Assembly (NCBI GenBank): GCA_944391115.1
Contig: CALXSJ010000014.1
Span: 1 to 64,000, forward strand
Origin: an uncultured Victivallales bacterium
Lineage (GTDB): Bacteria > Verrucomicrobiota > Lentisphaeria > Victivallales > UBA1829
DNA length: 64,000 nt
Direction: 5' to 3'
Position numbers and translations under genes: made by a program. Each line of letters starts with the position of its first letter. Position 1 is the stretch's first letter. This document shows positions 218 through 18,801 of the stretch, piece after piece. The notes below the pieces were generated by a model. It was not told where the DNA came from. It worked only from the letters and a program-made list of their open reading frames with translations, and ran no database searches.

Positions 218-238
218 AAAATGGTGCGCCCACAAGGA
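218..238. repeat. left attachment-site repeat (copy of tRNA-Lys 3' end)
   Basis: These 21 bases are identical to 18781-18801. They consist of AAAA followed by the reverse complement of the last 17 nt of tRNA-Lys including CCA (core TGGTGCGCCCACAAGGA). Identity stops immediately after position 238 (ATGTTCC here, CTCGAAC in the tRNA copy). This is the expected signature of integration by a tyrosine recombinase at a tRNA 3' end. Confidence 0.85.
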
Positions 239-636
239 ATGTTCCAACTTTTTTTCTTGAACTAAAAAGAAACATAAAGTTTTCTTTTTAGACTCAAAAG
301 TATCATATTTGGCTCTTTGCTGTGTTCGGAAAGCAACATTGTCAAACGGCACTTTTTACCACTTTCGATCCTCCAAATGGCACCGATTGACACCTCCTCT
401 TAAGAGCCTCATATCCGGGCACCATATCCTCAAAGCTGCACAAAGTGCCACTTATTACCGTTTCAATAAGCTTTCATCCCCTTACAACACTTTCAATATA
501 CTCCACTGTCGTATATATTGCAAATCTCATCAATGATTTTTTAGGAGGATGCGAACTCTATATCACTTTCAAAATTTTAATACGTATTTTAATTTAAATA
601 ATGTAAATTAAATAGCTATCGAATAAATCATCCCTA
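239..636. other. left end of the element, no gene supported
   Basis: AT-rich sequence between the left att repeat and the first terminator. A 75-codon frame at 309-536 (+) has no ribosome site and an unconvincing Cys/His/Ser-rich product, so it is not called. The stretch may be degenerate element DNA. Confidence 0.35.
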
Positions 637-670
637 AAACAGGCAAGCGTTTTATGACTTGCCTGTTTTT
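637..670 (-). terminator. rho-independent terminator, possibly bidirectional
   Basis: A perfect 9-bp stem (ACAGGCAAG, 639-647, with CTTGCCTGT, 658-666) has A-rich sequence on its left and a T-run on its right. It lies 28 bases beyond the stop of the minus-strand gene ending at 698. Confidence 0.75.
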
Positions 671-697
671 GAAATGTAGTATACTGCAAATTCAAGT

Positions 698-2113
698 TCA
701 AGATTGCGGAAAATACTGATTATATCCTTCAGGTATGTCAATATTATTTTCTTCTGCCAATTTTCTCAATTCATCGGGAGTAATTTCTTTGACTTTCATA
801 TCTGACAGGAGAGTTCCCGGATACATCACGCCGTCCCAATTATAATCACATTTTGCTCTTTGGGCTGACGTTATCAACAGGAAACGGGCAGCTGTCTTTT
901 CACGTTCGGAAATTGTTGCAGGAAAAAATTTCATTGCAAAGGCAATATCCTGTTCCGAAGCGGAGTCTATGAGAATATATCTGTCCTGCACCAGCAAATG
1001 GCTATCATTCAAACTGCTGCGATTGAAAGTATCGAGATATTCAGAATCGTCAATCACACAGACTGCAACAATAGATGTATCAGAAAAACTCATCCTCATT
1101 ATTCCTGGATTATGCGATATAATTACATGCAAGGTGGACAAGTTTTCAATGCGATCCTCACCCCATAACGGCATCTCAGAACAACTTGGCGGCGGGATAT
1201 ATAGCTTCGTTGCAACAGTATTATTTTTACTGCGGCAGATATAACTGCACGGCAGGAGAAGAGTTTTTTCTCCAACCGGAACCATTTCAATCCGGTAAGT
1301 TTCGGGGTTCAACCCTCGAATTTTGCAAATATCAAACTGCTTCCCATATTTGATTGTTTCCGGAGGCAAAATCATTTTTTGGGGCGTGTGGTCTTTATGT
1401 GGATTCGATAAATACATCAACTTCCACTTCTGTGCAATATCGTATTTTTCATCCAATATTTTAGCTATTTCATATTCCTCTTCATAAAAACCGTATCCAT
1501 CCATTCCGTAAGCAGCTAAAGTCTCATCAGGAAGCAGATAACGCAAAAATAAAAAAGGGGTTTTCCATGGAACGCTTCCCACAAAACCTGTCGGTGTATC
1601 TTCTTTCTTTACTTGCGGATCTCCTGTGAAAAAATAATTGAATGGAAAGTTACTTTGCACTATTGGACAATCAACCTGAATGCCAAAATCGAAATAATAA
1701 CCTTTATTTTTGTGTCTATATTGAAATAAACTATCAATTTCTCCACTGGTCTGGTTATTTATCATACAATCATAAATGAACTCATTAACACGGGACATCT
1801 GGATAATTCTACCGGATTGTTCCCAGTCACAATTCATCACAAACAGTTTCTGGGAGGAGAGTTCCTTGCAAACGGTTTCAAGTAATTCTTGAGGACTACT
1901 CCTTTTTAAGCTTCTTTCCTGTATCAGTCTCTCATATTTAGCTTCTTCCTGTTTTCTGAACTGGCGGTCGATAGCGGAAAGATCCAGTACTATTGGTCTG
2001 GGAGGAATATAATGTCCACTTGGAGGTTGAACATATTCCCACTTGCCTGTTTCATGATTATAACTTTTCTGTGCCATTGTATTTTCCGGTGCTCCTGGTG
2101 TTTTTTGTGCCAT
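698..2113 (-). CDS. hypothetical protein, 471 aa, function unknown
   Basis: I do not recognise this protein. The start at 2113 is chosen because AGGAGG lies 9 bases upstream on the minus strand. An upstream in-frame ATG at 2200 has no ribosome site. The product is soluble, with no signal peptide or membrane segment. It begins with a Pro-rich stretch (QPPSGHYIPPRP) and a charged helix, then a mixed alpha/beta body rich in Tyr, Phe and Pro. It lies downstream of the glycan operon on the same strand, about 120 bases after the last glycosyltransferase stop, and is followed by its own terminator. It could be the last gene of that transcript or an independent cargo gene. Codon use is AT-rich like the glycan genes. 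Confidence 0.8.
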   Translation of the reverse strand: MAQKTPGAPENTMAQKSYNHETGKWEYVQPPSGHYIPPRPIVLDLSAIDRQFRKQEEAKYERLIQERSLKRSSPQELLETVCKELSSQKLFVMNCDWEQSGRIIQMSRVNEFIYDCMINNQTSGEIDSLFQYRHKNKGYYFDFGIQVDCPIVQSNFPFNYFFTGDPQVKKEDTPTGFVGSVPWKTPFLFLRYLLPDETLAAYGMDGYGFYEEEYEIAKILDEKYDIAQKWKLMYLSNPHKDHTPQKMILPPETIKYGKQFDICKIRGLNPETYRIEMVPVGEKTLLLPCSYICRSKNNTVATKLYIPPPSCSEMPLWGEDRIENLSTLHVIISHNPGIMRMSFSDTSIVAVCVIDDSEYLDTFNRSSLNDSHLLVQDRYILIDSASEQDIAFAMKFFPATISEREKTAARFLLITSAQRAKCDYNWDGVMYPGTLLSDMKVKEITPDELRKLAEENNIDIPEGYNQYFPQS

Positions 2114-2235
2114 AATTGGATTCCTCCTGTTTTTTTGAATTCTAGCGAAATAGTTACAGTCTATCCCGCAAAGAGATTCTGTTATTTTTTTTACTGACAA
2201 ACGACAAGGTTAATGCTCCCTGTATTCACGGGTAT

Positions 2236-3294
2236 TCACAATGTTTGCATTTCTTTTCTACGGCAGTATATCAGACTGCCGTAGATATATTTACAGAGCC
2301 GGGAATACCATATCAAAGGGCGACATAACCTCATACGTGCCATTATCAAAATCGGGATATAGGGTATTCTGGAGCCTTTGATTAAACTCAGGAAAGGCAC
2401 TTTCGGACACCAGTCGTTTATCAAATTCAGTTCATCCGGCAACGGAGTTTCAGCTGTGGCCCACAAACGGTAAAAGTCGCACTTACAGTAAATTTTGCAT
2501 TTGAGAAGGGCCTGTTTGATCTCTTCTCTCATATAATCCCGGTCAGAAAAGAATTGCTCAAGGGCAGTCAAGGCAATAGTTTTCTGCCGCAGGTAATCCA
2601 CTTGGAATACACTGCTATAACTTTTTTGATTATTATGGCAGTAATAATACAGAACTTCTGGCAGCAAGATGACTTTGGATGCAAAATATACCAATCGCGG
2701 AGTCATGGCATGGTCTTCACCGCTATTTACATCTTTAATCCAGGTGACACCATTGCGTATATACAACTCTCTTCTGCAAAACATTGCCCATATCGCAACA
2801 TGACGTTCAAAACCAATAAGCTGCACTACCATATCCTCTTTATTGGTCAACTGCTGAACCTGATTCTTACAACGCCCATTATAATGAACTTCGCAAAAGT
2901 TAAAAATCACTATATCAGCCTGCGACTTTTCTGCTGTACGGTATAATTTCTCAACTGCATCAGGAGCAATGTAGTCATCGGAATCCACGTACCAGACATA
3001 TTTCCCGGAGGCCGCCATAATCGCGGTATTGCGGGTTTGTGCGATTCCGCAGTTTTTTTCATGGCGAATTACCTTGACCGCCGATTGGCGTTCCGGGTAT
3101 TTTTCCAGAACTTTCCGCATTATTTCTATGCTGTTATCCGGGGAACAGTCATCCACAAATATGTACTCTATGGCATTAAAACTCTGGGCAAAGAGTGATT
3201 CTGCACAGCGGGCCATCCATGATGCTACATTGCAGACCGGAACAAGTATTGAAACCTGAAACATTTCAAGCTCACACTTACGTAGATATTCCAT
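2236..3294 (-). CDS. family 2 glycosyltransferase
   Basis: Predicted GT-A fold transferase of 352 aa that moves a sugar from a nucleotide donor to a glycan at the cytoplasmic membrane face. The N-terminus has the GT2 opening VSILVPVCN, then FVDDCSPDNS and the metal-binding DxD-type motif YVWYVDSDDY. The C-terminal 100 residues are basic and hydrophobic, as in membrane-associated GT2 enzymes. The start at 3294 leaves 23 bases after the upstream stop and has GAGGAG about 12 bases before it; 3264 is an alternative. It is the last glycosyltransferase of the minus-strand operon 8816-2236. Donor and acceptor cannot be read from the sequence. Confidence 0.88.
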   Translation of the reverse strand: MEYLRKCELEMFQVSILVPVCNVASWMARCAESLFAQSFNAIEYIFVDDCSPDNSIEIMRKVLEKYPERQSAVKVIRHEKNCGIAQTRNTAIMAASGKYVWYVDSDDYIAPDAVEKLYRTAEKSQADIVIFNFCEVHYNGRCKNQVQQLTNKEDMVVQLIGFERHVAIWAMFCRRELYIRNGVTWIKDVNSGEDHAMTPRLVYFASKVILLPEVLYYYCHNNQKSYSSVFQVDYLRQKTIALTALEQFFSDRDYMREEIKQALLKCKIYCKCDFYRLWATAETPLPDELNLINDWCPKVPFLSLIKGSRIPYIPILIMARMRLCRPLIWYSRLCKYIYGSLIYCRRKEMQTL

Positions 3295-3317
3295 TTTAGA
3301 ATCAGACTCCTCTCTTT

Positions 3318-4109
3318 TTATCCCAATTGTATTTTGCGATACTCGATTGCCCCTTGAATCATATATCTGATGGTTGCAAAAAAAGCTAACGGTTTTAATA
3401 TTTTTCGTTTTATAACAGCAAATGCCAAAATCATAGGAAAAGCAAGCATTGGAGAGATTGCATAAAATACAGCCCCTCTGCATATCAGATAGTCAGCGTT
3501 GGCATATCCAATAAACCAAGAAGACTTTCTTTCTTCTCTCTTTAATATTTTTGAAGCAAAATATCGGATATTCAACTTTTTACGACGGCATTCCTCAAGA
3601 AAGATATTTTCTTCTCCGCTCTGGTATTTTTTACTACCTGTTCCGAAAAGAGTATTGAAAAAAATCTGTTCTTCGAGGATCTCTTTTCTCCTAAATGCAA
3701 TCTGTATTGACATAAATCCCAGGAGTTTTATCCTTGATGGTGATATATCCTGTAAAGGAAAAGAGCGTGAATAGTCGTCTATATTGAAGATCGCAACACT
3801 TACAGATGGATTTCTAAATGCAGACAAGATAATTTTCTCATAATCAGGATAATACAAAAGGTCATCGTCTGCTAGTGCTATAATATCCGCTTGGGAATTT
3901 CTAATGGCGGCATTTCTGCTGTTGCTCAGGCCTTTCTCCTTAGTACAAACTACAGTTACTTTATGCTTTTTATAATAAAATTCATAATGCTTGTCAATAT
4001 CGCATTGATTTATAACTATACAATCAGAATCAATATGACTTTGCTCAAGCATGACAAGAATTGCTTCTTTTGTTTTATTCATTGTCGAAACAGCAAGTTC
4101 AAAAGTCAT
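3318..4109 (-). CDS. GT2-like glycosyltransferase (GT-A fold)
   Basis: 263 aa. The N-terminal half has a divergent GT2 fold: a beta-strand opening (TFELAVSTMNKT), the segment GLSNSRNAAIRNSQADIIALADDD carrying a DDD metal-binding motif, then a region with paired acidic residues (SGEENIFLEE) typical of GT2 acceptor sites. The C-terminal third has hydrophobic stretches (AISPMLAFPMILAFAV) suggesting membrane association. Its start overlaps the stop of the upstream flippase gene in ATGA, so the two are translationally coupled. The role is probably one sugar-transfer step in building the repeat unit that the flippase exports. The sugar specificity is unknown. Confidence 0.82.
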   Translation of the reverse strand: MTFELAVSTMNKTKEAILVMLEQSHIDSDCIVINQCDIDKHYEFYYKKHKVTVVCTKEKGLSNSRNAAIRNSQADIIALADDDLLYYPDYEKIILSAFRNPSVSVAIFNIDDYSRSFPLQDISPSRIKLLGFMSIQIAFRRKEILEEQIFFNTLFGTGSKKYQSGEENIFLEECRRKKLNIRYFASKILKREERKSSWFIGYANADYLICRGAVFYAISPMLAFPMILAFAVIKRKILKPLAFFATIRYMIQGAIEYRKIQLG

Positions 4110-5368
4110 TTATTACCCCTCATTCTTACATATGCAAAAATATATGAAATAAGCCATATTAAAACCACCACCAACGTTGCCGCGCCGGCACCGTTGGCTC
4201 CACGATAATACGCCAACAGCGGAAAAAAGATCAATGCTCCGCCAAACACCGGTATCAAGACTTTAGCCGAGACGGTTTTCATGCCAACGGCATTGAAGAA
4301 GTGAAAAAATGCTTTGACAGGAATAGCGAGGATAGATGCTTCCACCAAGAACAAAGTACAGAATTTGGCTGCAACGAAACGTTCAGAAAAAAGTATCTTT
4401 ATCAGCCATTCTCCCCAACAGTACAATATTGGCAATACCGAAATCATACATAAAATCGTTGCGCCGGAAAGCAGCAGGAAAAACTGATTGAGCTTTTTCT
4501 TTTCATCATGGATAAAATATTCGGAAAACATAGGGGTAAATATCTGCAACACCACATCAAAAGCATTTACCATCATGGCAATAGGCAAAGCTATATTGAA
4601 AAGTACGACCTCCTCGGCAGAGCTGAAGAAACAGAGGGCAACGGTTCCTGCATCCGACATCAGAAAATATCCGCTTGAAAGCATCATGAAAACAAGTCCG
4701 CTTCGGAGTATTCGGGGTGGGACGCCTGACCATGAGAGAGGATGTAACAGAGGCAGGCTCCGGCTTGCAATTCGGTCTCCCAGCAAGGTGCAAAGCGAAC
4801 ATATCAGTACAAAAGAGACAATAATGATTTTGAAAGAGTGCAAATAGATTCCTGCCAGTACTGAACATAAGAGCAATACACTTTTGAGAGAACGAATAAC
4901 ATTTAACACCTTGAATTTTTTAAGGGAATTCAGTGCAAAGTATACAGTTGTTTCCAAGACAAGTCCCCAGATTGCCAAAAAATATATTGCCAGATTAGAT
5001 GCATTGACCGGAAAATCGAAGTAATAATGCTGAAAAAATGGAATAGCGATGATCAGCAAAAAATAAGCCACAGCGGAAGATATCAATTGAAAACGCCGGA
5101 TAAAACTGTAAACCATACCGGTCTGATCATATTTGCCGGATGCCAGCAAACGTGGCAGTTCAAAAAGCACCACATCAGACATCCCCAGCCGGATAAAGAC
5201 TATACATAGAGAAAGCAGAGAAAAGACGCTGTAAAAAAAAGCATACTCATCTGTCGTACAGCCGTTAGCCATAAACCTGCGGGTCAAATATCCGCATATA
5301 CCAGTTAACAGTGCGGCAACAAAGGAGAAAAAAGCCCCTTTAAGAAATTGTGCAGGAATCAACCCCAT
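4106..5368 (-). CDS. Wzx-type polysaccharide flippase
   Basis: 420 aa, highly hydrophobic, with about 12 predicted membrane segments and short charged loops. This is the size and pattern of the MOP-superfamily polysaccharide transporters that flip lipid-linked repeat units across the inner membrane. The N-terminal segment (FLKGAFFSFVAALLTGICGYLTRR) matches the usual opening helix. It lies among glycosyltransferases, overlapping the next gene by ATGA and the previous gene by 10 bases, as expected for a glycan operon. No Wzy polymerase or chain-length regulator is recognisable in the element, so the repeat unit may be short or polymerised by chromosomal genes. MOP family is well supported; the substrate is not. 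Confidence 0.85.
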   Translation of the reverse strand: MGLIPAQFLKGAFFSFVAALLTGICGYLTRRFMANGCTTDEYAFFYSVFSLLSLCIVFIRLGMSDVVLFELPRLLASGKYDQTGMVYSFIRRFQLISSAVAYFLLIIAIPFFQHYYFDFPVNASNLAIYFLAIWGLVLETTVYFALNSLKKFKVLNVIRSLKSVLLLCSVLAGIYLHSFKIIIVSFVLICSLCTLLGDRIASRSLPLLHPLSWSGVPPRILRSGLVFMMLSSGYFLMSDAGTVALCFFSSAEEVVLFNIALPIAMMVNAFDVVLQIFTPMFSEYFIHDEKKKLNQFFLLLSGATILCMISVLPILYCWGEWLIKILFSERFVAAKFCTLFLVEASILAIPVKAFFHFFNAVGMKTVSAKVLIPVFGGALIFFPLLAYYRGANGAGAATLVVVLIWLISYIFAYVRMRGNK

Positions 5369-6195
5369 TCACTCTGTCCTTTTTTACGGTAGGTGAACAG
5401 GACAAAGAGCTTTAGTATCCAGTCCGCCGGCAACATCAGCAATGTAAAACCGCAGATTTGGCGGATTATGCCGGATAGCGGCATCCGTCTGCCGTTGCGC
5501 TGATAATACCGACGCTGTAACAGCATGGTTATCGCAAGCGTTTTTTTGAGTTTGCGTTGCTTGATCTGCTGTTTGGAAATACGATAGCGCAGCAGAGGCT
5601 CCGGCAAATTGGCAAAATCAAAACAGTCTATTGCCCGAAGCCAGTAGTCATAGTCCTCACACACAGAACATGAGACAGAATAATCTCCAATTTTGCGGAG
5701 CACATCATGACGGAGCAACATTGCCGGTTGAGCAAGGACATTGCATATCGGCAGTTGTTTACGAATCTCTGAAGCAGCAATCGGATAATCCCTCCGACCA
5801 ATCAAATCCGAATTTTCATCAATGATTTCCAAGGCGGAGCCGACACCGCCGATCGCCGGATGCTCCATCAGATAATCAAGTTGTTTCCGAAAACGTTCAG
5901 AAGAACAAATATCATCGGAATCCATCCATGCCACAAAATCTGTATTCTCCGGAATCTCGGAGAGGAGGCGGTTTCTGGTTTTTACAGTACCGAGATTTTC
6001 CGGGTTGCTCAGCACCCGGATGCGCGGATCTCCGGCTGCGTATTGCCGCAGGATATGCAGGCTCCGGTCATTGCTGCCGTCATTACAGACGATCAGCTCA
6101 AAATCCCGATAAGTCTGGTTGCAAATGGAATCCAGGCACTCGGCTAAAAACTTTTCTGCATTGTATACCGGTAATAAAACAATCAGTTTTTTCAT
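5359..6195 (-). CDS. family 2 glycosyltransferase
   Basis: 278 aa from the ATG at 6195, which begins MKKLIVLLPVYNAEKFL, the classic GT2 N-terminus. The motifs VCNDGSNDRS and FVAWMDSDDICSS provide the nucleotide-binding Asp and the DxD metal site. CEDYDYWLRA in the second half matches the conserved ED-Y-x-W-LR acceptor/catalytic segment of EpsE/WfgS-like enzymes. In-frame ATGs at 6216 and 6276 would add a basic leader but no start has a strong ribosome site. It overlaps the flippase start by 10 bases. It is probably a cytoplasmic-side transferase in repeat-unit assembly. Confidence 0.87.
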   Translation of the reverse strand: MKKLIVLLPVYNAEKFLAECLDSICNQTYRDFELIVCNDGSNDRSLHILRQYAAGDPRIRVLSNPENLGTVKTRNRLLSEIPENTDFVAWMDSDDICSSERFRKQLDYLMEHPAIGGVGSALEIIDENSDLIGRRDYPIAASEIRKQLPICNVLAQPAMLLRHDVLRKIGDYSVSCSVCEDYDYWLRAIDCFDFANLPEPLLRYRISKQQIKQRKLKKTLAITMLLQRRYYQRNGRRMPLSGIIRQICGFTLLMLPADWILKLFVLFTYRKKGQSEWG

Positions 6196-6256
6196 TTGTC
6201 TTCTGCCGTTTTTCATATCATCTGGAAGAAACTTTTTCACGGATGACATTCCACAT

Positions 6257-6433
6257 TTAACAACGCTTATCCGCATGAGCTGTCGTCAACGCAATAGGAG
6301 TATCGTGTTCTCCCCAACTGGATTGGTTTAAGGTAATCAGGAAAAAATATCTGTTTTCTTTGACGAAATCATAAAAAACAAATGCGTTCCTGCTTCTGAA
6401 AATCATGGATACGACGGATGTAATGCTATTCAC
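6257..6433 (-). CDS. possible small protein, 58 aa
   Basis: A GTG-initiated frame fills the otherwise empty space between two glycosyltransferase genes. AAGGAG lies about 10 bases upstream of the GTG at 6433. The predicted product is Phe/Tyr/Arg-rich at its N-terminus (MIFRSRNAFVFYDFVKENR) and ends ALTTAHADKRC. I recognise no family. It ends 61 bases upstream of the next gene's chosen start. Support comes only from the ribosome site and its place in a tightly packed operon; it could instead be leftover sequence of a decayed gene. Confidence 0.35.
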   Translation of the reverse strand: MNSITSVVSMIFRSRNAFVFYDFVKENRYFFLITLNQSSWGEHDTPIALTTAHADKRC

Positions 6434-6447: not shown

Positions 6448-7335
6448 TTACTTTTTTAATCCTGCAAGATGTTTTCTGATCTGGCTGAGTTGTTCTCCCA
6501 ACAGTCCCAATACGAAACAAACCAGTCCCAGCATAATCATCATGACTGCGGCAGGCGTGATCGTGCTTGACTTCAGGTAGGTAAAAATACTTAAAATAAT
6601 TCCAAAAATTCCGAAAAAAAGTCCTAACCGGAAAAAGGTTGTCATGGGACGCAGCAGCACCGAAAGGTTCATGATTTCTGCAATCGTAACAAATGCCGTC
6701 CGCGTTCCAATAGTGCTTGCTCCTTTCAAACGGGGCTCGACTTGAATCGGTATTTCAGAAACGGATTTGTTGTCATTAATCATTAAAAGTAAAATGACAT
6801 CACTGAATGCCATTGTGTCAGGACATAACGACAGATATGCTTTTGCTTCGCCCATTCGATAACATTTCATGCCTGAATTTAAATCTTTTACCGGCAGGGT
6901 CAAAAGCGATTTGGCAAACATCCGAATCATCCATTTTCCTAAATTACGGTAAAATCCGGATGCATCATTGGTGCGTGCTCCGACAACAAGATCCAGGTTA
7001 TGTTCCTGCAAGTAATTAAAACACCTGCTGATATCCTGAAGACGATGCTGTCCATCGGCGTCGACAGTAATTGCATATTCCGTCTCGACTGCTTTCAAGC
7101 CGGTTTTCAGAGCAGCACCATAACCGCAGTTGCATTTATGGTGCAATACTTTTAGTTCAGATTTTTCCGCTAATTGATTCAATAAGTCACCTGTATTGTC
7201 GAGAGAGCCATCATTGACCGCAAGAAGAGCATAGTTGTTTTCCTCGGCAAATGCCCGCAGCTTCGGAAAAAACAAAGGAATATTAAACGCCTCATTGTAA
7301 CAGGGAACTACTATTGTCAATAATTTATCCATCAC
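6448..7335 (-). CDS. DPM1/GtrB-like polyprenyl-phosphate glycosyltransferase
   Basis: 295 aa. The GT2 domain covers roughly residues 5-220: LTIVVPCYNEAFNI, LAVNDGSLDNT, the DxD site TVDADGQH, and the DPM-type signature KDLNSGMKCYR. Two C-terminal membrane helices follow (about 228-250 and 258-282), the layout of GtrB/ArnC-like enzymes that load a sugar onto undecaprenyl phosphate. The downstream-acting partner is plausibly the GT-C transferase encoded immediately upstream, whose stop overlaps this start in ATGA. This pairing, a lipid-sugar donor maker plus a GT-C acceptor enzyme, suggests a side-branch or protein/lipid glycosylation step on the outer face of the inner membrane. The donor sugar is unknown. 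Confidence 0.87.
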   Translation of the reverse strand: MMDKLLTIVVPCYNEAFNIPLFFPKLRAFAEENNYALLAVNDGSLDNTGDLLNQLAEKSELKVLHHKCNCGYGAALKTGLKAVETEYAITVDADGQHRLQDISRCFNYLQEHNLDLVVGARTNDASGFYRNLGKWMIRMFAKSLLTLPVKDLNSGMKCYRMGEAKAYLSLCPDTMAFSDVILLLMINDNKSVSEIPIQVEPRLKGASTIGTRTAFVTIAEIMNLSVLLRPMTTFFRLGLFFGIFGIILSIFTYLKSSTITPAAVMMIMLGLVCFVLGLLGEQLSQIRKHLAGLKK

Positions 7336-10929: not shown

Positions 10930-11376
10930 ATGTTGAAATTGAATGCATCTTACAGTAAGAAAGTTCCGGCGGACACGGAGTATTCCAGCCAGAGCTACCA
11001 CGCCTCCATTGAGGTGGAAATCCCGGACGGTCTGACAGCGGAACAGCTTCAGAGCCGCATCCATGAGACCTTTGATCTTGTGCGGAACAGCGTCGAAACG
11101 GAACTGCATGGCGGTAATTGTACGACTGTACAGCAAAGACCGCAATCCCCGCAGAGTTATTCCGGAGGCAAGGGCAGTTACGGCAAGGGGAAAGGCAGTC
11201 AGAGTCCCGATGGTCCCGCGTCTCCGAAACAGATCAAATATCTGCTTGACCTCGCAAGGGACGCCCGTGTCACGCCTCAGCAGATCGCGGCAAGGTTCCG
11301 GGTGAATACCGTAGAGGAGCTGTCGCGCAATCAGTGCAGTCTGGCGATCAACGAGTTCAACGGAAAGGCGGCGTGA
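10930..11376 (+). CDS. hypothetical protein with Gly/Ser-rich linker and C-terminal helical module
   Basis: 148 aa. The first 60 residues look like a small alpha/beta domain (YHASIEVEIPDGL, then a long helix to about residue 60). A Gln/Ser/Gly/Lys-rich linker spans about 70-97. The last 50 residues (ASPKQIKYLLDLARD ... VEELSRNQCSLAINEF) form a helical module of the kind often found at the C-terminus of phage single-strand-annealing or recombination-associated proteins. The TGA stop is followed after one base by the nuclease start, so the two are coupled. A role with the nuclease in DNA processing is an inference. Confidence 0.75.
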   Translation: MLKLNASYSKKVPADTEYSSQSYHASIEVEIPDGLTAEQLQSRIHETFDLVRNSVETELHGGNCTTVQQRPQSPQSYSGGKGSYGKGKGSQSPDGPASPKQIKYLLDLARDARVTPQQIAARFRVNTVEELSRNQCSLAINEFNGKAA

Positions 11377-11377
11377 A

Positions 11378-12163
11378 ATGAATCTGAATGAGTTGCGCAA
11401 AGAACCGCACTGGTCGTATTCGGCGTTCCATTGCTACCTGACATGCCCGCTGAAATTCAAGTTCCAGTATGTCGAACATGTAGAGCCGGAGCACACGTGC
11501 AGTTGCTTTCCGTTCGGGCGTGCCTTCCATGCGGCGTTGAGTCAGCGTGCAAGGAGTGGTCCGCAGATGAAGATTGCAGATGTCAAGGAGCTGTTCGAGG
11601 CGTATTTCAAGGCGGAAATCAATGCCGTGGAGCATCTCGTCTACAAGCCGAAAGAGGATTACGGGTCTCTGCTGCAAACGGGATTTGACATGCTCACTGT
11701 CTGCCTCGAAAACTGGCAGGATGACTTTGCGGTCAGGAGCGTGGAGGAAGGGTTTTCCGTGGAGATTCCGGGGCTGTCGAAGCCGCTGATCGGGGAGTAT
11801 GACATGCTTGTGGAGGACGGCGGTCATGAGTGCATTGTCGATTGGAAAACAGCAAGCGCGAAATGGTCTCCGGGCAAGGCGCATCAGGACTTGCAGGCAA
11901 CAGTATTTTGTTACGCCCGTACAAAACAGACCGGCAGGAGTCCGCTGTTCCGGTTCGATATCGTGACGAAGACCAGAACGCCATGTGTGGAGTCGCACTA
12001 TACCGAGCGCAGAGAGCAGGACTTTCAACGCTTTGAACTGCTGGCGCAGACCATTGAATCGGCGATGCAGAGGGATGTGTTCTATCCGAACGAGACCTGC
12101 TTCTCGTGTTCCGACTGCCAGTTCAAAACCAAGTGCCGTTTGTGGCACGTAAGAAAGGGGTGA
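11378..12163 (+). CDS. PD-(D/E)XK nuclease, Cas4/AddB/RecB-like with Fe-S cysteines
   Basis: 261 aa. Core motifs are visible: His51 in FGRAFHAAL, Asp142 in GEYDML, Asp155 and Lys157 in IVDWKT, and the Q-x(5)-Y helix LQATVFCYA. Cys23 (YLTCPLKF) together with Cys241, Cys244, Cys247 and Cys253 near the C-terminus form the cysteine arrangement that holds a 4Fe-4S cluster in Cas4 and AddB. The family acts as single-strand or end-processing exonuclease. Its neighbours (clamp-like, DUF932, annealing-like module) indicate phage/plasmid recombination and not CRISPR adaptation; no Cas1/Cas2 or repeats are present. Confidence 0.88.
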   Translation: MNLNELRKEPHWSYSAFHCYLTCPLKFKFQYVEHVEPEHTCSCFPFGRAFHAALSQRARSGPQMKIADVKELFEAYFKAEINAVEHLVYKPKEDYGSLLQTGFDMLTVCLENWQDDFAVRSVEEGFSVEIPGLSKPLIGEYDMLVEDGGHECIVDWKTASAKWSPGKAHQDLQATVFCYARTKQTGRSPLFRFDIVTKTRTPCVESHYTERREQDFQRFELLAQTIESAMQRDVFYPNETCFSCSDCQFKTKCRLWHVRKG

Positions 12164-12167: not shown

Positions 12168-12905
12168 ATGAGCAATCTTTGCATGGGCGGCGGTGGTCAC
12201 TACGCCACACGGGAAGAAGTGGCACTGGTTCCAACGCCGGAAGCAACTTCGAGCTGGAAGCCGGTTCCACATTATGAGGTCATTGAGGCGGTAACGGAGG
12301 TGGTGCAGGCGCATCAGTGGGTGATTCTGGAAGAACAGTTCGGCTTGGCACGTGAGGGTGCGAAGCTGTTCGGCGTGATGAAGATCAACAGGAGTTCTTC
12401 GCTGGAATGGTGCCGCTGCATCGGCATCCGCAATTCCCACGACAAGAGTTTTTCCGTGGGGTTGACAGCCGGGATTACGGTCATCTGCTGCTCGAATATG
12501 GCATTCGGCGGAAGCATGGTTCTGAAGCGCCGCCATACCTCGCGGATTGAGCTGTGCGATCTGGTTGACAAAGCCGTCGATGAACTCGAAAATGAGTTCC
12601 TGATACTGGAGAATGTAGCAGAGGATCTGAAAGTGGCGTATCTGGACAATGACGACGAAGCCAGAAGCCGAATCGTCAGAGCCGCAGAACTCGGTGCAAT
12701 CAACAGCTCGGATATTGTACCGGTGTACAAAGAATTCAAGACTCCCTCTCACGAGGAGTTCCTGGAGCCGACAAGATGGAGCCTGCTGAATGCGTTCACG
12801 GAGACGGTCAAGAAATACACCCCGCAACGGGTGGACGTCTCCTATGCCGCATTGAACCGCTGCTTCGGGCTGGACGGAAGAATACCGTTGTTATGGGAAA
12901 AGTAA
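12168..12905 (+). CDS. DUF932 (phage/plasmid-like TIGR03299-type) protein
   Basis: 245 aa. The order of motifs follows DUF932: an N-terminal region with a conserved Pro/His segment (KPVPHYEVIEAV), the strand pattern FGVMKI ... CRCIGIRNSHDKSFSVGLTAG, the ICCSNMAF segment typical of the family, and a helical C-terminus. DUF932 proteins are common on plasmids, phages and ICEs; their molecular function is not settled. It begins 5 bases after the nuclease stop, in the same operon. Confidence 0.85.
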   Translation: MSNLCMGGGGHYATREEVALVPTPEATSSWKPVPHYEVIEAVTEVVQAHQWVILEEQFGLAREGAKLFGVMKINRSSSLEWCRCIGIRNSHDKSFSVGLTAGITVICCSNMAFGGSMVLKRRHTSRIELCDLVDKAVDELENEFLILENVAEDLKVAYLDNDDEARSRIVRAAELGAINSSDIVPVYKEFKTPSHEEFLEPTRWSLLNAFTETVKKYTPQRVDVSYAALNRCFGLDGRIPLLWEK

Positions 12906-13020
12906 TCGCGGGTATTCACCCCATGGTACGCCCTCTGCCGGAAGTGGTGCAAACGGCAGAGTATTCATGCACTCCGGCGGCTTCGGTCGCCGGTTTTCTA
13001 TTCAAAACAGAAAGGAAAAA

Positions 13021-13335
13021 ATGATGGTGAAAATCTTTTGTCCGCACTGTTCCACCCCTGCCAATCCCGTACATTGCGCCCGCAATTTCGGAACCGCAGT
13101 CGGAATTGTCGCGGGAGGAACAAGTGTAGTTTCCGGTATGATTCAGGGTGCCTGTGTCGGAAGCGCTCTCGGTCCGGCAGGGATCGCAATCGGAGCTGCC
13201 GCAGGGTCTTTGTTGCGTGTTCTTCTTGGTGTTTCCTCCGGCGGTCTGCTTGGAGCACAGGTCGGAAGACTGATCGACGAGAATCTGATCGGTTTCTATC
13301 GCTGTCCGAAATGTCATGCAATTTTCAAGGCATAG
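13021..13335 (+). CDS. zinc-ribbon protein with glycine-zipper-like hydrophobic core
   Basis: 104 aa from the ATG at 13021 (AAAGGA upstream; a second ATG follows at once). CPHC near the N-terminus and CPKC near the C-terminus could form one split zinc ribbon. Between them lies a long Gly/Ala/Val-rich segment (VGIVAGGTSVVSG, GSALGPAGIAIGAAAGSLL) with glycine-zipper spacing, which could insert in membrane. No family is recognised with confidence. It is followed by a second small zinc-ribbon gene. Confidence 0.7.
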   Translation: MMVKIFCPHCSTPANPVHCARNFGTAVGIVAGGTSVVSGMIQGACVGSALGPAGIAIGAAAGSLLRVLLGVSSGGLLGAQVGRLIDENLIGFYRCPKCHAIFKA

Positions 13336-13343
13336 GTGAAGCT

Positions 13344-13493: not shown

Positions 13494-13503
13494 AATTACA
13501 CTC

Positions 13504-13538: not shown

Positions 13539-13553
13539 ATCTGGTGCATTCAT

Positions 13554-14222
13554 TCAAATCAAATGATCTTCTCTGAACACGGATTTACGGGATGGATATT
13601 CCGTCAGTTCGATCAGTTTTCGGAATTGTTCCCCGGTGCGTATCCGGTCTTTTAATTTCGGTAAAATATTGAGCCTGCGCCAATCTTCTTCGCAGAACAG
13701 ATCAAGACAGGGACATTCCGACAGCAGTTCGGCTGAGCTGTAAAGGATGCTCCACCACATCGGTTTCGTAAACTGTTCCTTGAAAGGACATTGAAACCAA
13801 TGGCGCGGATTATGCTTGATGATCCAGAACCAGTCACCAAGTGTGAAGTCGTGCGTGTCGATATCCCCTGTATAACTCCAGCCACTCGCCAGCAATCCGC
13901 TTCTTATAGCCGGGTGATCCGGGATCTCGCAGTAATGAAGCAAAGTCGGTTGGTGCCGTAATAATTTCTGCCACTGATACGGGGTGAAATCCTGCCAGCA
14001 GGAACATCGCCAGGCAAGCGGAAGTTGTCCGGATAAGGCTGTCACCCAGTCGTCCGGGGTGAACTCTGCAAACGGGCAGAACTCCTGTAGTTCCGGGTGC
14101 CGTGAAATAATACGTGCCCATTGTTTCGGTGACAAAGGAGCGGATACGGATTCTGTTTCTGCTGCAAAGGCGGCACAGTTCCATTCAAGATCAAGGAATG
14201 TGTTCAGTTCTGTTTCGGTCAT
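13554..14222 (-). CDS. Trp-rich tandem-repeat protein
   Basis: 222 aa from the ATG at 14222, with GAGGTG 4 bases upstream; in-frame ATGs farther upstream lack ribosome sites. The protein is built of repeats of about 25 to 35 residues with the pattern [FL]-T/S-x(2)-[DQ]-W-x(2)-[LI][LI]-x-x-x-P-x-[LW]-x-x-x-C, for example LSPKQWARIISRHPELQEFC, FTPYQWQKLLRHQPTLLHYC and FTLGDWFWIIKHNPRHWFQC. The regular W, P and C positions suggest a helical solenoid used for protein binding. No enzyme motif is seen. It is convergent with the replication operon. Confidence 0.8.
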   Translation of the reverse strand: MTETELNTFLDLEWNCAAFAAETESVSAPLSPKQWARIISRHPELQEFCPFAEFTPDDWVTALSGQLPLAWRCSCWQDFTPYQWQKLLRHQPTLLHYCEIPDHPAIRSGLLASGWSYTGDIDTHDFTLGDWFWIIKHNPRHWFQCPFKEQFTKPMWWSILYSSAELLSECPCLDLFCEEDWRRLNILPKLKDRIRTGEQFRKLIELTEYPSRKSVFREDHLI

Positions 14223-14258
14223 GGTGCACCTCATGTTTTTGTGTTGTGGATTTTGTGA

Positions 14259-14347
14259 CAGGAGGATGCCTGTCATAATATTGTTGTGCGAAAATAAAAC
14301 TGATTGCATAAGTATCCGGCTGGTGCGGTTTCCCGCACACAAGCCGG
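14259..14347 (-). other. hairpins between two minus-strand element genes
   Basis: GACAGG-AGGATG-CCTGTC forms a short stem near 14259-14276. A longer interrupted stem joins CCGGCT/GTGCGG (14316-14328) to CCGCAC/AGCCGG (14333-14347). They lie downstream of the YagK/YfjJ-type gene and may end its transcript, although no clean T-run follows. Confidence 0.4.
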
Positions 14348-14423
14348 TATCATCAAATTATCATCATCCGGACTCCGCCGGACTCTCATATCATAGTAGA
14401 CACGCTGTATTTTTTTACCGGAC

Positions 14424-15035
14424 TTATTCCTTCGGGATCTGCGTAAAACCAAACATCCGGCATCCCTCCGGAGTCTTTTCCTTTTCATTGACTTTCGCGG
14501 CATAACTCATCCAGTGAGAAGCATTATGCAGTTGCGTTTCCGCATCCGCCCCATGACGGCGAATCCGTATGCCGGTATTGTTGTCCGCCTGTTCCTGCGG
14601 TGGACAATAGCGAACATAATTGGAATCAGGGGATGTTCCGATTTCACGGGACCAGACATCATTGAAAAATCCAGCGATCTTTCGGACATTCTGAACCTTG
14701 TTGCCGTCACAAACCGGATAGCAGTGATAATGAGGATGTTCGGAATCACGTTGTTCTCGTGCCCAGACAAGCTGGGCGTCGATCCCCTCCCGTTTCAACT
14801 TCATCCGGCATTTGCGTATTGCATTGGAAATATGCCGGTTATCATTCTGTGTTTCCATTTCAGGAGGAAAACGGAATTCCAGATGCCCTACAAATACCTG
14901 GTTATGCTTCTCGGTCATGTAACGCAACCGCTTCTGTATTTCATTTACTGCCTCCCGATAAACGGGATGCTCCGGATCGGCATTCACGGATAAATGGTTT
15001 AACTGGCTTTCCGTGTGGTGGTGTCTTTTCGGCAT
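14424..15035 (-). CDS. YagK/YfjJ-type (inovirus Gp2-like) replication-associated protein
   Basis: 203 aa from the ATG at 15035 with AGGAGC upstream. The body resembles the YagK/YfjJ C-terminal domain: a strand with FVGHLEFRFPP, a helix RHISNAIRKCRMKLKR, then the central SEHPHYHCYPVCDG, which carries an HxH-type metal-binding motif (His102, His104) as in HUH replication initiators, followed by a helix and VRYCPP. Proteins of this family are found in inoviruses and in CP4-like integrative elements such as the one with YfjJ in E. coli. The iteron-like field starts about 175 bases upstream. I infer a role in starting element replication; the catalytic tyrosine is not certain. Confidence 0.72.
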   Translation of the reverse strand: MPKRHHHTESQLNHLSVNADPEHPVYREAVNEIQKRLRYMTEKHNQVFVGHLEFRFPPEMETQNDNRHISNAIRKCRMKLKREGIDAQLVWAREQRDSEHPHYHCYPVCDGNKVQNVRKIAGFFNDVWSREIGTSPDSNYVRYCPPQEQADNNTGIRIRRHGADAETQLHNASHWMSYAAKVNEKEKTPEGCRMFGFTQIPKE

Positions 15036-15210
15036 GATTTGCTCTGCTCCTTTTCTGAATGATTTTATGTATGCCATGATTGATTTCTGTTCTGTAATTA
15101 TTCTCATTCTGGATTCGAACAATCATTGAAATCAATTTCCGTATCTTATTTCCGGGCTTATTCTGTGCTTCCTGTTCTCTGTTCATCGTTTTCTTATGGT
15201 TGCTGTTTAG

Positions 15211-15300
15211 GCTTATGGCTTTATAGCTTCCTGATAACTTTATAGCTTTTATAACTCTTATAGCTTACTCTAATAGCTCTTATAGCTTAGCTTTAGCTAT
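15211..15300. repeat. iteron-like direct repeats (TTATAGCTT), candidate origin
   Basis: Exact TTATAGCTT copies start at 15221, 15240, 15258 and 15280, spaced 18 to 22 bases. Degenerate copies occur at about 15213 (TTATGGCTT), 15271 (TAATAGCTC) and 15292 (TTTAGCTAT). The field is AT-rich and lies between the YagK/YfjJ-type gene and the AlpA-like gene, where an origin would be expected. Confidence 0.7.
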
Positions 15301-15457
15301 TTCTAATAACCGAGTTGTGCCTGATCGAATTTTGCCTGCATTTCCATAACTTTTTAAAACATGAGTTGCCGTAATGCTGAATGAGGCTGTTTTTACACTT
15401 AGGTCTCGCATAAAATAACAGGTTTTCAAAAGTAAAAAAGATTCATGACCCGCGATC

Positions 15458-15484
15458 GTATGCGCTCAAAGGAGGGGCGCATAC
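15458..15484 (+). promoter_or_regulatory. hairpin displaying the ribosome site of the AlpA-like gene
   Basis: GTATGCGC (15458-15465) pairs with GCGCATAC (15477-15484), which ends exactly one base before the ATG. The loop holds AAAGGAGG, so the ribosome site is presented in a stem-loop abutting the start codon. Such a structure could control translation. Confidence 0.55.
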
Positions 15485-15811
15485 ATGAATGAAATCAGAA
15501 TTTCAATGAATACCGTTCGCTTCTTCAAACGAATCATGCGTCCGGTCGCGGAAGAAGGAATTATTTCACTGCCGGAATACAATGAGGCGATTTCTCAATT
15601 GACCAGCCTTGCGGAACACGGGGTTCCCAAACCTGTGGTCACTCCGAAACTTCTGGATCAGCGTGAGGTCGCGGAGATGCTCAACATCAGCCACAGCAAT
15701 TTCAAAAAGCTCGAAGCCGAGGGAGCTTTCCCGTTCAAAAGAAAAATGGTAGGCTCAGCAGTGCGATACCGCAATACCGATGTTCTGAATTACATCAGTT
15801 CCTATGACTGA
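15485..15811 (+). CDS. AlpA/excisionase-like helix-turn-helix protein
   Basis: 108 aa. Residues 56-105 form a MerR-type winged helix (LLDQREVAEMLNISHSNFKKLE ... then SAVRYRNTDVLNYI), the fold of AlpA regulators and recombination directionality factors. The first 50 residues form a separate helical part. In CP4-like elements AlpA activates the integrase and excision. Its 3' end overlaps the convergent gene by 10 bases. Confidence 0.8.
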   Translation: MNEIRISMNTVRFFKRIMRPVAEEGIISLPEYNEAISQLTSLAEHGVPKPVVTPKLLDQREVAEMLNISHSNFKKLEAEGAFPFKRKMVGSAVRYRNTDVLNYISSYD

Positions 15812-17082
15812 TCTTTCCATTGCTGAATTCCGCGTTTTCGGTAATGTCTGTGTTTTTTATAGACACGAATATTCCATAATGCCATATATTTACGTAGCGT
15901 TGGAACAGAAATAGGCTTTGGCATGATGACACGTGTATTAATGTCCTTCACTATCTGGGAAATATCCTGTCCCTGCTGGACTCGTGTCCAGACAAAGTCC
16001 CGGAGATGCGCAGAATGAAGCATCTTGATTCGATACGTCCAATAAATCGCTTCCTTATGGCATGTATACCGGTATGTACACATGTCTCTGGAAGCAGATT
16101 TTGAGGCAATACAATCCCGGAAACACAGGTCCAGTTCCGATGATTTTCCTTTACGCCAGTAGTCCGCTTCATAAGCCATTTCAAATAATGAGCATGGCAT
16201 TTTTTCTTTTGCAATAATACAGACAAAGTAACCAGCCTCCGCCAAATTTTTCAGCATTTGCTTTAGGAGTTGCTTTTCTGTTTTTTTATATTCAAATCCA
16301 TCCAGAAAGATATTTTTCGGTAATCCGGGAATCGACAAAATACATTCCAAATTTGATTTTCCTGTTTCGTTCAGCTGCCAAGGAGCGGATTTGTTCCCCA
16401 GCAGACATGAAAAGAAATTTTTCCCATTTCTTATTATTCCATAATCCAGTTCTTTGCGAAGATCATCAAAAGCGAGATTTAGGTGCAGAAGCTTTATTTG
16501 CTGATGAAAGTTCCAGTAATCCTGTTCATTTGTAATATTTTTGAAGTATACAACATCCTTATTTTGATTAAAACGCCATGGAATTCCCCCTTTTATGCCG
16601 GTCGGCAAAATATTTCCCTGTTCCTCACAGGCACGTTGTATTTGGTTGATTCCATACCAGTCACGATGTTGACTACTGTCAGCGATATAGGCCGCAATAG
16701 ACAATCCCCAGGCGGTAAGATTTCCATTTCCCCAGAAAACTATATTTTTAACTTTTCCAAGCGTTTGACAGCCTATCGCTTTTTTCCCCTCCCAGTTGTC
16801 AAGAATAAAATGACTGCTGGGAACCAGTTTGTTAAAATCCATTGAAGTATGGCACGACTCTTGGTGTGTGGCATTTTGGGGGACTGGTGAGACGAGCGGT
16901 ATAGGTATATCTTGATTAGAGGGTGAGTCAGAACTGGAAGAATTATCGGACAGCATGTTTGGAAGATTAGCATTTGCATTTGCAGACGGGTGTGGCTCTT
17001 GAAAAAATGTAGATGAAGCTTGCGAACAATTATCACTATAATTAGATGAAAGATTCCCATTATTTACTGGTTCTGATTTCAT
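15802..17082 (-). CDS. unrecognised basic protein, possible degenerate RecA-fold ATPase
   Basis: 426 aa from the ATG at 17082, which has AAGGA about 8 bases upstream; ATGs at 17097 and 17112 are alternatives. The first 80 residues are low-complexity Asn/Ser/Pro. The segment NIVFWGNGNLTAWGLSIAAYIADS has the strand-turn-helix shape of a P-loop region but lacks the GK(T/S). PKNIFLDGFE followed by a helix and YFVCIIAKEK resembles a Walker B strand and next strand. The C-terminus (ISQIVKDINTRV ... VPTLRKYMALWNIR, then a Lys/Arg/His tail) looks like a DNA-binding helix-turn-helix. I cannot assign a family. It is AT-richer than the rest of the module and lies between the AlpA-like gene and the integrase. 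Confidence 0.65.
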   Translation of the reverse strand: MKSEPVNNGNLSSNYSDNCSQASSTFFQEPHPSANANANLPNMLSDNSSSSDSPSNQDIPIPLVSPVPQNATHQESCHTSMDFNKLVPSSHFILDNWEGKKAIGCQTLGKVKNIVFWGNGNLTAWGLSIAAYIADSSQHRDWYGINQIQRACEEQGNILPTGIKGGIPWRFNQNKDVVYFKNITNEQDYWNFHQQIKLLHLNLAFDDLRKELDYGIIRNGKNFFSCLLGNKSAPWQLNETGKSNLECILSIPGLPKNIFLDGFEYKKTEKQLLKQMLKNLAEAGYFVCIIAKEKMPCSLFEMAYEADYWRKGKSSELDLCFRDCIASKSASRDMCTYRYTCHKEAIYWTYRIKMLHSAHLRDFVWTRVQQGQDISQIVKDINTRVIMPKPISVPTLRKYMALWNIRVYKKHRHYRKRGIQQWKDQS

Positions 17083-17112
17083 GCTTTTTTCCTTCATTTT
17101 TTTTGATTTCAT

Positions 17113-17376
17113 TATTTCTTTTGCATAAATATATAATTATAATAAAATCATATCTAATATAATTAATATAGCAAATAAAGATTCATAAATCAAGTATAAT
17201 TTCTATTTTTTAATAGAGATAATAGTAAACTCCATTTTTGCATAAATAATATTTTTAATAAAGCATATTATTATTTTCTTTTTCTATAGAAAAGTATTTA
17301 TTCATATAGTGAATTTTATATTTTATAAATGCACAGATACATTACTGTCCTGTGCATTTGTAAGGAAGCATATTAA
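17113..17376. other. very AT-rich spacer upstream of the unknown gene
   Basis: Almost entirely A and T, with several TATAAT-like and TTATAAT-like words. It probably holds the promoter of the minus-strand gene at 17082 and may act as an easily melted region. No reading frame is supported. Confidence 0.5.
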
Positions 17377-18672
17377 TCAATCTTTTAAGATTTTAATAAT
17401 ACTTTGCACTTCTTGTGTATCTGGAAGATTTTGCAGATATTGCAAAGCTTTTTCGATCCGTGCCCTGTCGGATGGCCCTGCTGTTCCGCTGACGGCTTCT
17501 ATCGCCTTGAGCTGGGCATCTTCTCCGACGTGCGTATAAAACTGATCAATGATGTCGCTGTTCGCACCGAGGATCGAAACCACCACTGCTTTCGGAACAC
17601 CCGCCTCCGCGCAGAACGAGGCAAAACTGTGCCGCAGACTGTGGAATCCGTAGACAACCATCTTTCTTTTTCTTCCGGGAACTTCGACGTTGGTTTCCAT
17701 TCCGGCACGTTTGATGACGCGCATCACGTCGATATTGACAAAATTATCGCCTACGGATTTTCCCTTTGCGTCTACCGTCAAATAACGTTTTGCCACGTTG
17801 GGAGAGACGTAGGAGTCGATGCGCCATTCTTTTGCTTGCTCCAGTGCGCGGACAAGCGGTTCTGCGATGGGAATAGATACCTGTTTCCCGGTTTTAAACT
17901 GTTTCACCCAAATCCGACGATGCATCAAATCCACATGATCCCATTGCAGGAGAACGCAGTCCTTCAGCCTCTGTCCTGTATACATTCCGATCAGATAAAT
18001 GACTTTCAGCTCTTTTTTATTCATGACTTTGAAACTCGGATCGTCCAGAACCTTGAGAATTGCTTCTTCCTGTTCTTTTGTGAATGCAAGACGACGCACC
18101 GTGTTTCCTTGTTCTTCCCGTGGCTTTCTGCGCAGATTCTGGGATGCAAACGGGTTGTCTTCGGAATAATAATCCGAGAGTGTGGTAAAGATTTTTCTGA
18201 GACGGAGAATTTTCCGATTATGTGTGGATACTGAAATTGCTGTCGTCTTGAGATAAGCCGCATATTGGTCTGCGATACCTGGGGTAATTGCCGCCACCTG
18301 TGTTTCTTCCCCGATGTAACGTATGAATTCCGTAAAGGTTGTTTCGTAGGAAATTTCTTCATGACGTGTCGTGGGAAATGCCCTGTCCGGATGTTCCGCA
18401 TAAACTTTCCAAGCGTCTTTCAGAGCAAGCGGGCGGCTTTTCCTTGCGAGATTGCGTGCCACTTTGACATGTGCGGAGATCACTTCTGCCGTTGTTGCCT
18501 GAACGATGGGCAGAAGTTCTTTTGCTTTTTTCAGAGCTTCTTCCTGATTCTGCGTTTTCAGGCTGACACATTTTCGTTCATGATTGACCTGATAGCGGAA
18601 ATAATAAGTTCCGCCTTCTTCCTTCTGATAAACAGTTCCGGTTTCCAGTTTGATCTTGTTTTTCTTTCCCAT
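17377..18672 (-). CDS. tyrosine recombinase / integrase
   Basis: 431 aa with GGAGGATGAA before the ATG. The N-terminal part binds arms of DNA (AP2-like strands TYYFRYQVN), the middle 100-180 is the SAM-like core-binding domain, and the catalytic domain runs from about 195. Active-site residues visible are Arg235 (TGQRLKD), Lys263 (KTGK), His344 and Arg347 (HSLRHSF), and the nucleophile Tyr379 (DQFYTHV). The usual second His of the LGH motif is replaced (ILGANS), which is tolerated in some integrases. It lies 109 bases from the right att repeat in tRNA-Lys, the normal position for an integrase of a tRNA-targeting element. Confidence 0.95.
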   Translation of the reverse strand: MGKKNKIKLETGTVYQKEEGGTYYFRYQVNHERKCVSLKTQNQEEALKKAKELLPIVQATTAEVISAHVKVARNLARKSRPLALKDAWKVYAEHPDRAFPTTRHEEISYETTFTEFIRYIGEETQVAAITPGIADQYAAYLKTTAISVSTHNRKILRLRKIFTTLSDYYSEDNPFASQNLRRKPREEQGNTVRRLAFTKEQEEAILKVLDDPSFKVMNKKELKVIYLIGMYTGQRLKDCVLLQWDHVDLMHRRIWVKQFKTGKQVSIPIAEPLVRALEQAKEWRIDSYVSPNVAKRYLTVDAKGKSVGDNFVNIDVMRVIKRAGMETNVEVPGRKRKMVVYGFHSLRHSFASFCAEAGVPKAVVVSILGANSDIIDQFYTHVGEDAQLKAIEAVSGTAGPSDRARIEKALQYLQNLPDTQEVQSIIKILKD

Positions 18673-18780
18673 TTCATCCTCCGGCGATGAAAAATCCTGT
18701 TTTGGCTAAAATAATACGGAAAAAAGAGAAAGAAAGCTCTGAATGGTAATAAACGGTAACTTTTCTTTAGAAATGAGGCT

Positions 18781-18801
18781 AAAATGGTGCGCCCACAAGG
18801 A
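18781..18801. repeat. right attachment-site repeat inside tRNA-Lys
   Basis: Identical to 218-238. It covers the last 17 nt of tRNA-Lys and four A beyond it. Because it keeps the tRNA intact, this is the element/tRNA junction that rebuilds the gene after integration. Confidence 0.85.

Follow-up and report, generated by a model that had tools for sequence, protein, structure and literature searches.

A probable recently mobile genomic island at tRNA-Lys(CTT) in an uncultured Victivallales bacterium, with near-identical relatives of its integrase at other tRNA genes

An 18.6-kb stretch (218-18801) of DNA from an uncultured Victivallales bacterium (Lentisphaerota; genome G000, 3.66 Mb) is very probably (probability about 0.85) a recently mobile integrative element, or genomic island, of a Lentisphaerota element family, inserted at tRNA-Lys(CTT) by the mechanism proposed below. 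It lies in the window, by which we mean the whole 64,000-nucleotide stretch analysed (positions 1-64,000 of contig CALXSJ010000014.1). As far as sequence comparison can tell, the element combines precise insertion at a tRNA 3' end, a conserved backbone, movement across species and differing tRNA occupancy of near-identical integrases. The most unusual feature is the last, the presence of near-identical integrases at different tRNA genes with small protein change involved. Comparisons were made among 61 genomes, comprising G000 itself, three of the same genus (G001, G002 and G003), 32 of the same family and 25 of the same order.

A reading made from the sequence alone (hereafter the sequence-only reading) had placed a 21-bp repeat of the tRNA-Lys 3' end at both borders of an 18.6-kb element, with the integrase beside an intact tRNA, and had noted that copies of the repeat scattered elsewhere would speak against it. 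The exact direct repeat, AAAATGGTGCGCCCACAAGGA, the ARAGORN and Rfam calls and the Pfam match of the integrase bear this out (Table 1), and no third copy occurs genome-wide at up to three mismatches (a reversed control pattern gave zero matches). In sequence, the repeat core corresponds to the tRNA T-stem and acceptor-stem 3' strand together with CCATTTT; insertion thus leaves the tRNA whole. tRNA-Lys(CTT) is the sole Rfam match within 1-20000, and the integrase lies 112 bp from its end; the left flank of the element measures only 217 bp because window base 1 is the contig start. A tRNA 3'-end repeat at both borders with an intact tRNA, together with a relative lacking the insertion, places the element among tRNA-integrated genomic islands.

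That relative is G001, in which the site without insertion that the sequence-only reading proposed to look for was found on contig C9. Window 81-238 aligns with 255-414 of stretch L062 (85% identity) and window 18781-21496 with L062 394-3157 (84%), and the two alignments overlap in one 21-bp core (L062 394-414); since the flanks are contiguous across this single core, G001 is without an insertion at tRNA-Lys. The other refuting outcome named in the sequence-only reading, related genomes that keep this gene order with no empty tRNA-Lys site, did not arise either. An integrase of 98% identity lies at tRNA-Val(TAC) in G001; no such integrase was found in the readable sequence of the tRNA-Val(TAC) site of G000. 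As a separate observation, one sequence recurs just 3' of tRNA-Lys, tRNA-Gln and tRNA-Arg (window 78-164, L062 87-354, L174 7464-7733 and L173 1997-2188) and is possibly a scar of other elements.

Judged by fourfold-degenerate sites, the element is mobile between species, as its identities are far higher than those of host genes: the integrase reaches 0.98 with G003 and 0.97 with G002, and p436 1.00 with G003; of two host genes beside the tRNA, the TIM-barrel gene reaches only 0.47 with G003 and 0.45 with G002, and the MFS gene 0.43 and 0.42. Over longer distances, the element backbone is 97% identical to G003 over 5.2 kb, and host stretches are 77-89% (G003) and 76-82% (G002) identical. Identity to G003 drops toward the element middle (p262, 90.5%) and the match to the G001 copy ends inside rep, which suggests that element copies are mosaic. 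An old, immobile chromosomal island whose repeat is a relic might account for the single occupied Lys site in the genus and for the decayed look of other module copies in G000 (G000:C37, DUF932 and nuclease genes truncated), but we consider it very improbable because the frames are intact, the 21-bp repeat is exact, p436 and the adjoining 264-bp intergenic stretch are 100% identical to G003, and the G001 site is unoccupied. The earlier proposal that a mobile element sits at tRNA-Lys and carries glycan genes is thus upheld by the unoccupied site, the recurrence of the backbone with other cargo and fourfold-site identities far above those of the host. Outside the element, window 26000-32157 is 96% identical to G001, compared with 84% in the nearby 18781-21496.

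Integrase targets have switched often in evolution (PMC4383910, in the text available); what is notable here is the small protein change involved. The sequence-only reading had not noticed that near-identical integrases of the family occupy different tRNAs. The integrase search gave 54 rows, one a duplicate, and hence 53 loci, 42 of which adjoin a tRNA (same strand, ≤450 bp upstream) and carry 17 tRNA labels; G027a, first labelled Met, was counted as Asn, since it is the Asn gene that its repeat matches. A tree of the 42 rows (11 of the 54 rows without a tRNA and the duplicate left out) requires at least 29 tRNA-label changes, between the smallest possible number, 16, and the mean after shuffling, 34.0; none of 200 shuffles was as low, so that some clustering is present. 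Of the 20 integrase pairs with an identity of at least 90%, 12 occupy different tRNAs; these differ in 2-7 of 14 core bases and in 0-4 of 15 arm bases, although the 20 pairs are non-independent and fall into six clusters, four with mixed targets. The window integrase, at tRNA-Lys, is 98-99% identical to integrases at tRNA-Val, and in G002 the first 21 residues of a further copy beside tRNA-Val(CAC), all that is readable before the contig end, are identical. With integrases this similar at both tRNA-Lys and tRNA-Val, it is apparently the DNA core, and not the integrase, that determines which tRNA is targeted. A precedent is mycobacteriophage Ms6, in which changing the attP core alone redirected the integrase between tRNA-Ala genes (PMC1762012, in the passages available). 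A switch in progress, recognizable by a distal core of a tRNA other than the occupied one, was found in none of 17 stretches; one Lys-like match (G057b) and one Leu-like match (G028b), each with two mismatches, were set aside as chance. The idea of a crossover within a universal CCATTTT segment was dropped, the G052a and G036f repeats ending at CCA. A wider model, which we think rather unlikely, would make this a DNA-addressed family, in which a near-constant integrase serves many tRNAs, the address is a replaceable 17-21-bp attP tRNA tail at the cargo end, and backbone recombination swaps cargo and address together, so that islands with different glycan or defence cargo stack at different tRNAs.

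The window element is one of a family of Lentisphaerota elements that have the backbone in common but differ in cargo. Some integrase match is present in 53 of the 61 genomes, and in the larger stretches, retrieved around part of these matches, integrase, AlpA, Rep, clamp, p148, PD-(D/E)XK and DUF932 proteins recur in varying subsets. Among 23 tRNA-bearing stretches, eight have a cognate 19-26-bp repeat, two a 14-15-bp repeat and 13 none (several cut by contig ends); the eight repeat-delimited elements, the window element included, span 11.6-38.8 kb. The marker p148 was found in 29 of 194 sampled genomes of the phylum, mostly of the same order. A search of open-licence papers returned no description of such elements in Lentisphaerota or Lentisphaerae.

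Cargo varies among the delimited elements. That of G057 carries a glycoside hydrolase family 2 (GH2) protein, a nucleoside hydrolase, transporters and an AraC regulator, and the others, taken as pooled sets rather than gene by gene, carry reverse transcriptase, dynamin-like, colicin-DNase or restriction-specificity families. The G057:C9 stretch (L142, L143) is a sister element of 25.7 kb at tRNA-Asn; with its GH2, nucleoside hydrolase, MFS, SSF and AraC genes, it may be a mobile cluster for sugar use. Within the genus of the window bacterium there are seven other clamp-module loci, two cut by contig ends (G001:C42 and G002:C129). Their neighbours include five GT2 glycosyltransferases, an epimerase and a sulfatase (G000:C17), a Glycos_transf_1 transferase and a sulfatase (G003:C223), Gabija GajA/GajB and a type I restriction enzyme (G002:C32), a type IIG system (G002:C13) and Cas9-Cas1-Cas2 (G000:C37). 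Cargo exchange, for which the sequence-only reading suggested looking for the module next to other cargo, is supported in part, insofar as clamp modules adjoin other glycan genes, Gabija, restriction-modification and Cas9, but none of these neighbours was shown to be repeat-delimited: no delimiting repeat was found for the modules at tRNA-Arg (G000:C17) and tRNA-Gln (G000:C37), nor for those in G005:C175, G016:C100 and G022:C216, and the glycan and defence neighbours in the genus are candidate element members only. In G000:C37 (L174 13017-17654), Cas9, Cas1 and Cas2 lie ~2.3 kb from the decayed clamp module at tRNA-Gln, with repeat-like sequence after them. A further stretch, G036:C1:1135405-1195404 (L132-L134), holds three integrase copies in ~54 kb, with an Arg-type core standing alone at position 19471 of the joined sequence; the arrangement has the look of a tandem array that terminates at tRNA-Arg(CCT).

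In the mechanism that we propose, the tyrosine integrase would recombine the 21-bp attP core with the tRNA-Lys(CTT) 3' end, the AlpA-like protein would probably control integrase expression or excision, and the HUH-like Rep with the clamp and nuclease module would probably copy the excised circle; the target tRNA, whose differing occupancy is observed, would be dictated by attP core DNA. The excision-type regulator and replication-type genes of the sequence-only reading find support in Pfam and PHROGs matches. Family scans covered 19 window proteins of the element (Pfam), 10 backbone proteins (PHROGs) and 10 window proteins (PADLOC). They recognized no defence system by PADLOC (only weak Cas4-like matches for the nuclease) and no P4-type primase-helicase or P4 regulatory genes, and p436, present in three of the 61 genomes, all of one genus, had zero matches in Pfam, PHROGs, PADLOC or PDB and a predicted structure of no use (mean predicted local distance difference test score, pLDDT, 44).

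How the element would travel admits two alternatives, neither of which we favour. It might be a phage satellite, its excised, Rep-copied DNA packaged by a helper phage, which is consistent with the AlpA-like regulator, the tyrosine integrase at a tRNA, the phage-type clamp (phrog_947), the exonuclease-like nuclease, DUF932, the compact family sizes (11.6-38.8 kb) and the defence systems beside other clamp modules. We regard this as somewhat unlikely because the PHROGs scan of backbone proteins yielded no family for capsids, terminases or packaging, none of 50,697 phage records matches the clamp, and scans of IMG/VR viral contigs with the integrase, DUF932 and clamp found no relatives. Integrase matches in phages were distant (23-26% identical for the eight best listed). 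Alternatively, it might be an integrative mobilizable element, in which the HUH-like Rep would nick an origin and leave transfer of the strand to a conjugative element in the same cell. The HPHYH motif of Rep, its match to REP_ORF2-G2P/YagK-YfjJ and the lack of transfer genes of its own would suit such a passenger, but this too is a minority possibility, given that no Pfam family for a relaxase, coupling protein or type IV secretion was recognized in the 19 window proteins (a search for an origin of transfer was not made), which also sets it apart from integrative and conjugative elements, and that none of 72,556 plasmid records matches the clamp.

The cargo of this integrative element is a set of seven minus-strand open reading frames (ORFs), namely four GT2 glycosyltransferases, one GT-C enzyme, one flippase and one without assigned function, and is genuine glycan biosynthesis. 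The seven-gene, AT-rich glycan cluster of the sequence-only reading is thereby recovered, G+C being 40% in 239-9200 and 57% right of the tRNA. Four of five members of the flippase alignment match PF01943 Polysacc_synt (best E 1e-10), the exception being the window protein, and GT2a matches the solved lipid-sugar synthases ArnC and DPMS and the glycosyltransferase sll0501 in PDB. PDB sequence comparison gave zero matches for the flippase and GT-C enzyme, as for p436, and the flippase structure prediction was likewise of no use (mean pLDDT 45). The true start of GT2d is probably internal to its annotated ORF, given the position of its domain. Judging from protein families, the operon at 698-8816 would build a glycan, in which GT2a probably charges undecaprenyl phosphate with a sugar for use by the GT-C enzyme, while chain lengthening would fall to the remaining GT2s and passage across the membrane to the flippase. 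PMT_2-like GT-C enzymes also glycosylate proteins, and the product might be another glycoconjugate than a surface coat, for example glycoproteins or a polymer that is stored or exported. In line with this, neither a polymerase nor a ligase or initiating transferase was recognized, and ORF1 has no assigned function. We think this somewhat unlikely, because the flippase, polyprenyl-phosphate-sugar synthase and GT-C enzyme together resemble O-antigen-type assembly and modification. The GT-C gene is absent from the congeners G001-G003. In the sequence-only reading, the element was a means of swapping surface glycans, with a possible bearing on phage defence; of this, cargo exchange stands in part, whereas surface display, glycan swapping and an effect on phages are still conjectural.

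Several points weigh against our interpretation. G000 and G001 have in common an outer left flank similar to sequence found in G000 next to tRNA-Gln and tRNA-Arg, near other clamp-module copies, and the G001 Lys site may therefore have been visited earlier rather than being pristine. The contrast with G001 is weak (element 95-97% and host 84-96% identical), so that G001 alone is no proof of transfer. In the genus, a single copy has both ends known, and the tRNA-Val elements run into contig ends; as their distal cores are unseen, we infer the DNA address rather than observe it. Excision, circle formation and transfer are candidate steps, none of them observed here. Finally, relatives of the GT-C, GT2a and flippase genes are clustered 3-4 kb from tRNA-Ser(TGA) in four genomes of genus g5 (with GT2b in two; a GT-C relative alone was found in a fifth). 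These GT-C relatives are ~39-41% identical over most of the protein and lie at a fixed chromosomal place, which means that the operon is not peculiar to mobile DNA; a wholly element-unique glycan operon was rejected for this reason.

Table 1 Features of the element and its target gene in the window.
Feature	Position	Strand	Evidence and remarks
Distal attachment-site copy	218..238		Identical to 18781-18801; collinear with L062 394-414 of the unoccupied G001 site
Cargo ORF1, 477 aa	698..2131	-	Zero Pfam, PADLOC and NCBIfam matches
GT2 glycosyltransferase GT2d	2236..3483	-	PF00535 E 2e-31; domain aa 78-210
GT2 glycosyltransferase GT2c	3318..4109	-	PF00535 E 1e-11
Probable Wzx-type polysaccharide flippase	4106..5368	-	No direct Pfam match; ~11 hydrophobic segments
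GT2 glycosyltransferase GT2b	5359..6276	-	PF00535 E 1.5e-32
GT2a, polyprenyl-phosphate-sugar synthase-like GT2	6448..7335	-	PF00535; hydrophobic C-terminal segments
GT-C membrane glycosyltransferase	7332..8816	-	PMT_2 E 8e-4, below Pfam cut-off; 9 hydrophobic segments; 4-bp overlap with GT2a
Sliding-clamp-like protein (clamp)	9491..10849	+	phrog_947 DNA polymerase processivity factor, E 8e-10; kept across family
p148, family marker protein	10930..11376	+	Family copies 46-65% identical
PD-(D/E)XK nuclease	11378..12163	+	PF12705 E 3e-24; phrog_1218 exonuclease
DUF932 protein	12168..12905	+	PF06067 E 4e-10
Small glycine-rich protein (gz)	12967..13335	+	Homologues in family modules, 33-63% identical
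p262, backbone protein of no assigned function	13554..14342	-	G057 homologues adjoining Rep, 70-76% identical
YagK/YfjJ-type replication protein (Rep), HPHYH motif	14424..15122	-	PF11726 E 1e-8; PF23343 E 9e-6
AlpA/HTH_17-like regulator	15485..15811	+	PF12728 E 4e-5 and PF05930 E 0.004, both below cut-off; PHROG excisionase/regulator
p436, adjoins integrase	15802..17112	-	In G000, G001 and G003 only (61 genomes); 100% identical in G003
Tyrosine integrase	17377..18672	-	PF00589 Phage_integrase E 3e-21; R, HxxR and Y align with XerC-like structure
tRNA-proximal attachment-site copy	18781..18801		Exact repeat; overlaps tRNA-Lys 3' end
tRNA-Lys(CTT), intact target gene	18785..18860	-	ARAGORN; Rfam RF00005

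With these results, Lentisphaerota gain a family of delimited, recently mobile elements that target tRNAs. They also make it possible to test whether, in nature, the DNA core alone can carry the target choice of a tRNA integrase and whether surface-glycan operons share a backbone with known anti-phage systems. If the address is indeed the 21-bp core, near-identical integrases might become tools for insertion at selected tRNA genes.

Among known systems, AlpA and YagK/YfjJ proteins, to which the names of the matched Pfam families refer, have their place in the CP4-57 and CP4-6 (P4-like) islands of E. coli, beside a tyrosine integrase, and the window element likewise has an AlpA-like protein (its match below the Pfam cut-off), a YagK/YfjJ-type protein and a tyrosine integrase at a tRNA; unlike those islands, it has no recognized P4 primase-helicase or helper-control genes and does have the clamp and nuclease module. 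The gtr serotype-converting clusters of phages and islands consist of GtrA, GtrB and a serotype-specific GT-C enzyme, and the cargo resembles them, as generally described, in carrying a GtrB-like lipid-sugar synthase and a GT-C enzyme on mobile DNA, but GtrA was not recognized in Pfam or NCBIfam scans of the cargo, and additional GT2s and a Wzx-type flippase are present. Islander tRNA islands, in the available text of PMC4383910, share the tyrosine integrase at an intact tRNA, the displaced tRNA fragment at the far end and internal cargo, whereas switching here occurs at 93-99% integrase identity, several times within one order. The tycheposons of Prochlorococcus (PMC10872708, PMC11389934; compared by description, from excerpts) also combine a tyrosine recombinase, a tRNA border and large variable cargo, but in another phylum; here there are 17 tRNA kinds and an AlpA/YagK-Rep/clamp/PD-(D/E)XK/DUF932 backbone. 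Phage-inducible chromosomal islands (PICIs), including helper-embedded ones, have an integrase, an HTH_17/AlpA regulator and a replication zone; in the sections of PMC10111431 available, their 14 site groups are monophyletic by integrase except for two slight splittings and off-targets, and one group, at tRNA-Phe, has an integrase extremely close to another that directs insertion at a protein gene. Here, in contrast, target groups are not monophyletic by integrase, and no packaging genes occur among the backbone proteins scanned. In the attP-core variants of Ms6, the core picks the tRNA with one integrase, as we propose for this family; the Ms6 variants were engineered and act within tRNA-Ala T-loops (PMC1762012, in the part available), whereas the variation described here is natural, extends across isotypes and lies at the acceptor end.

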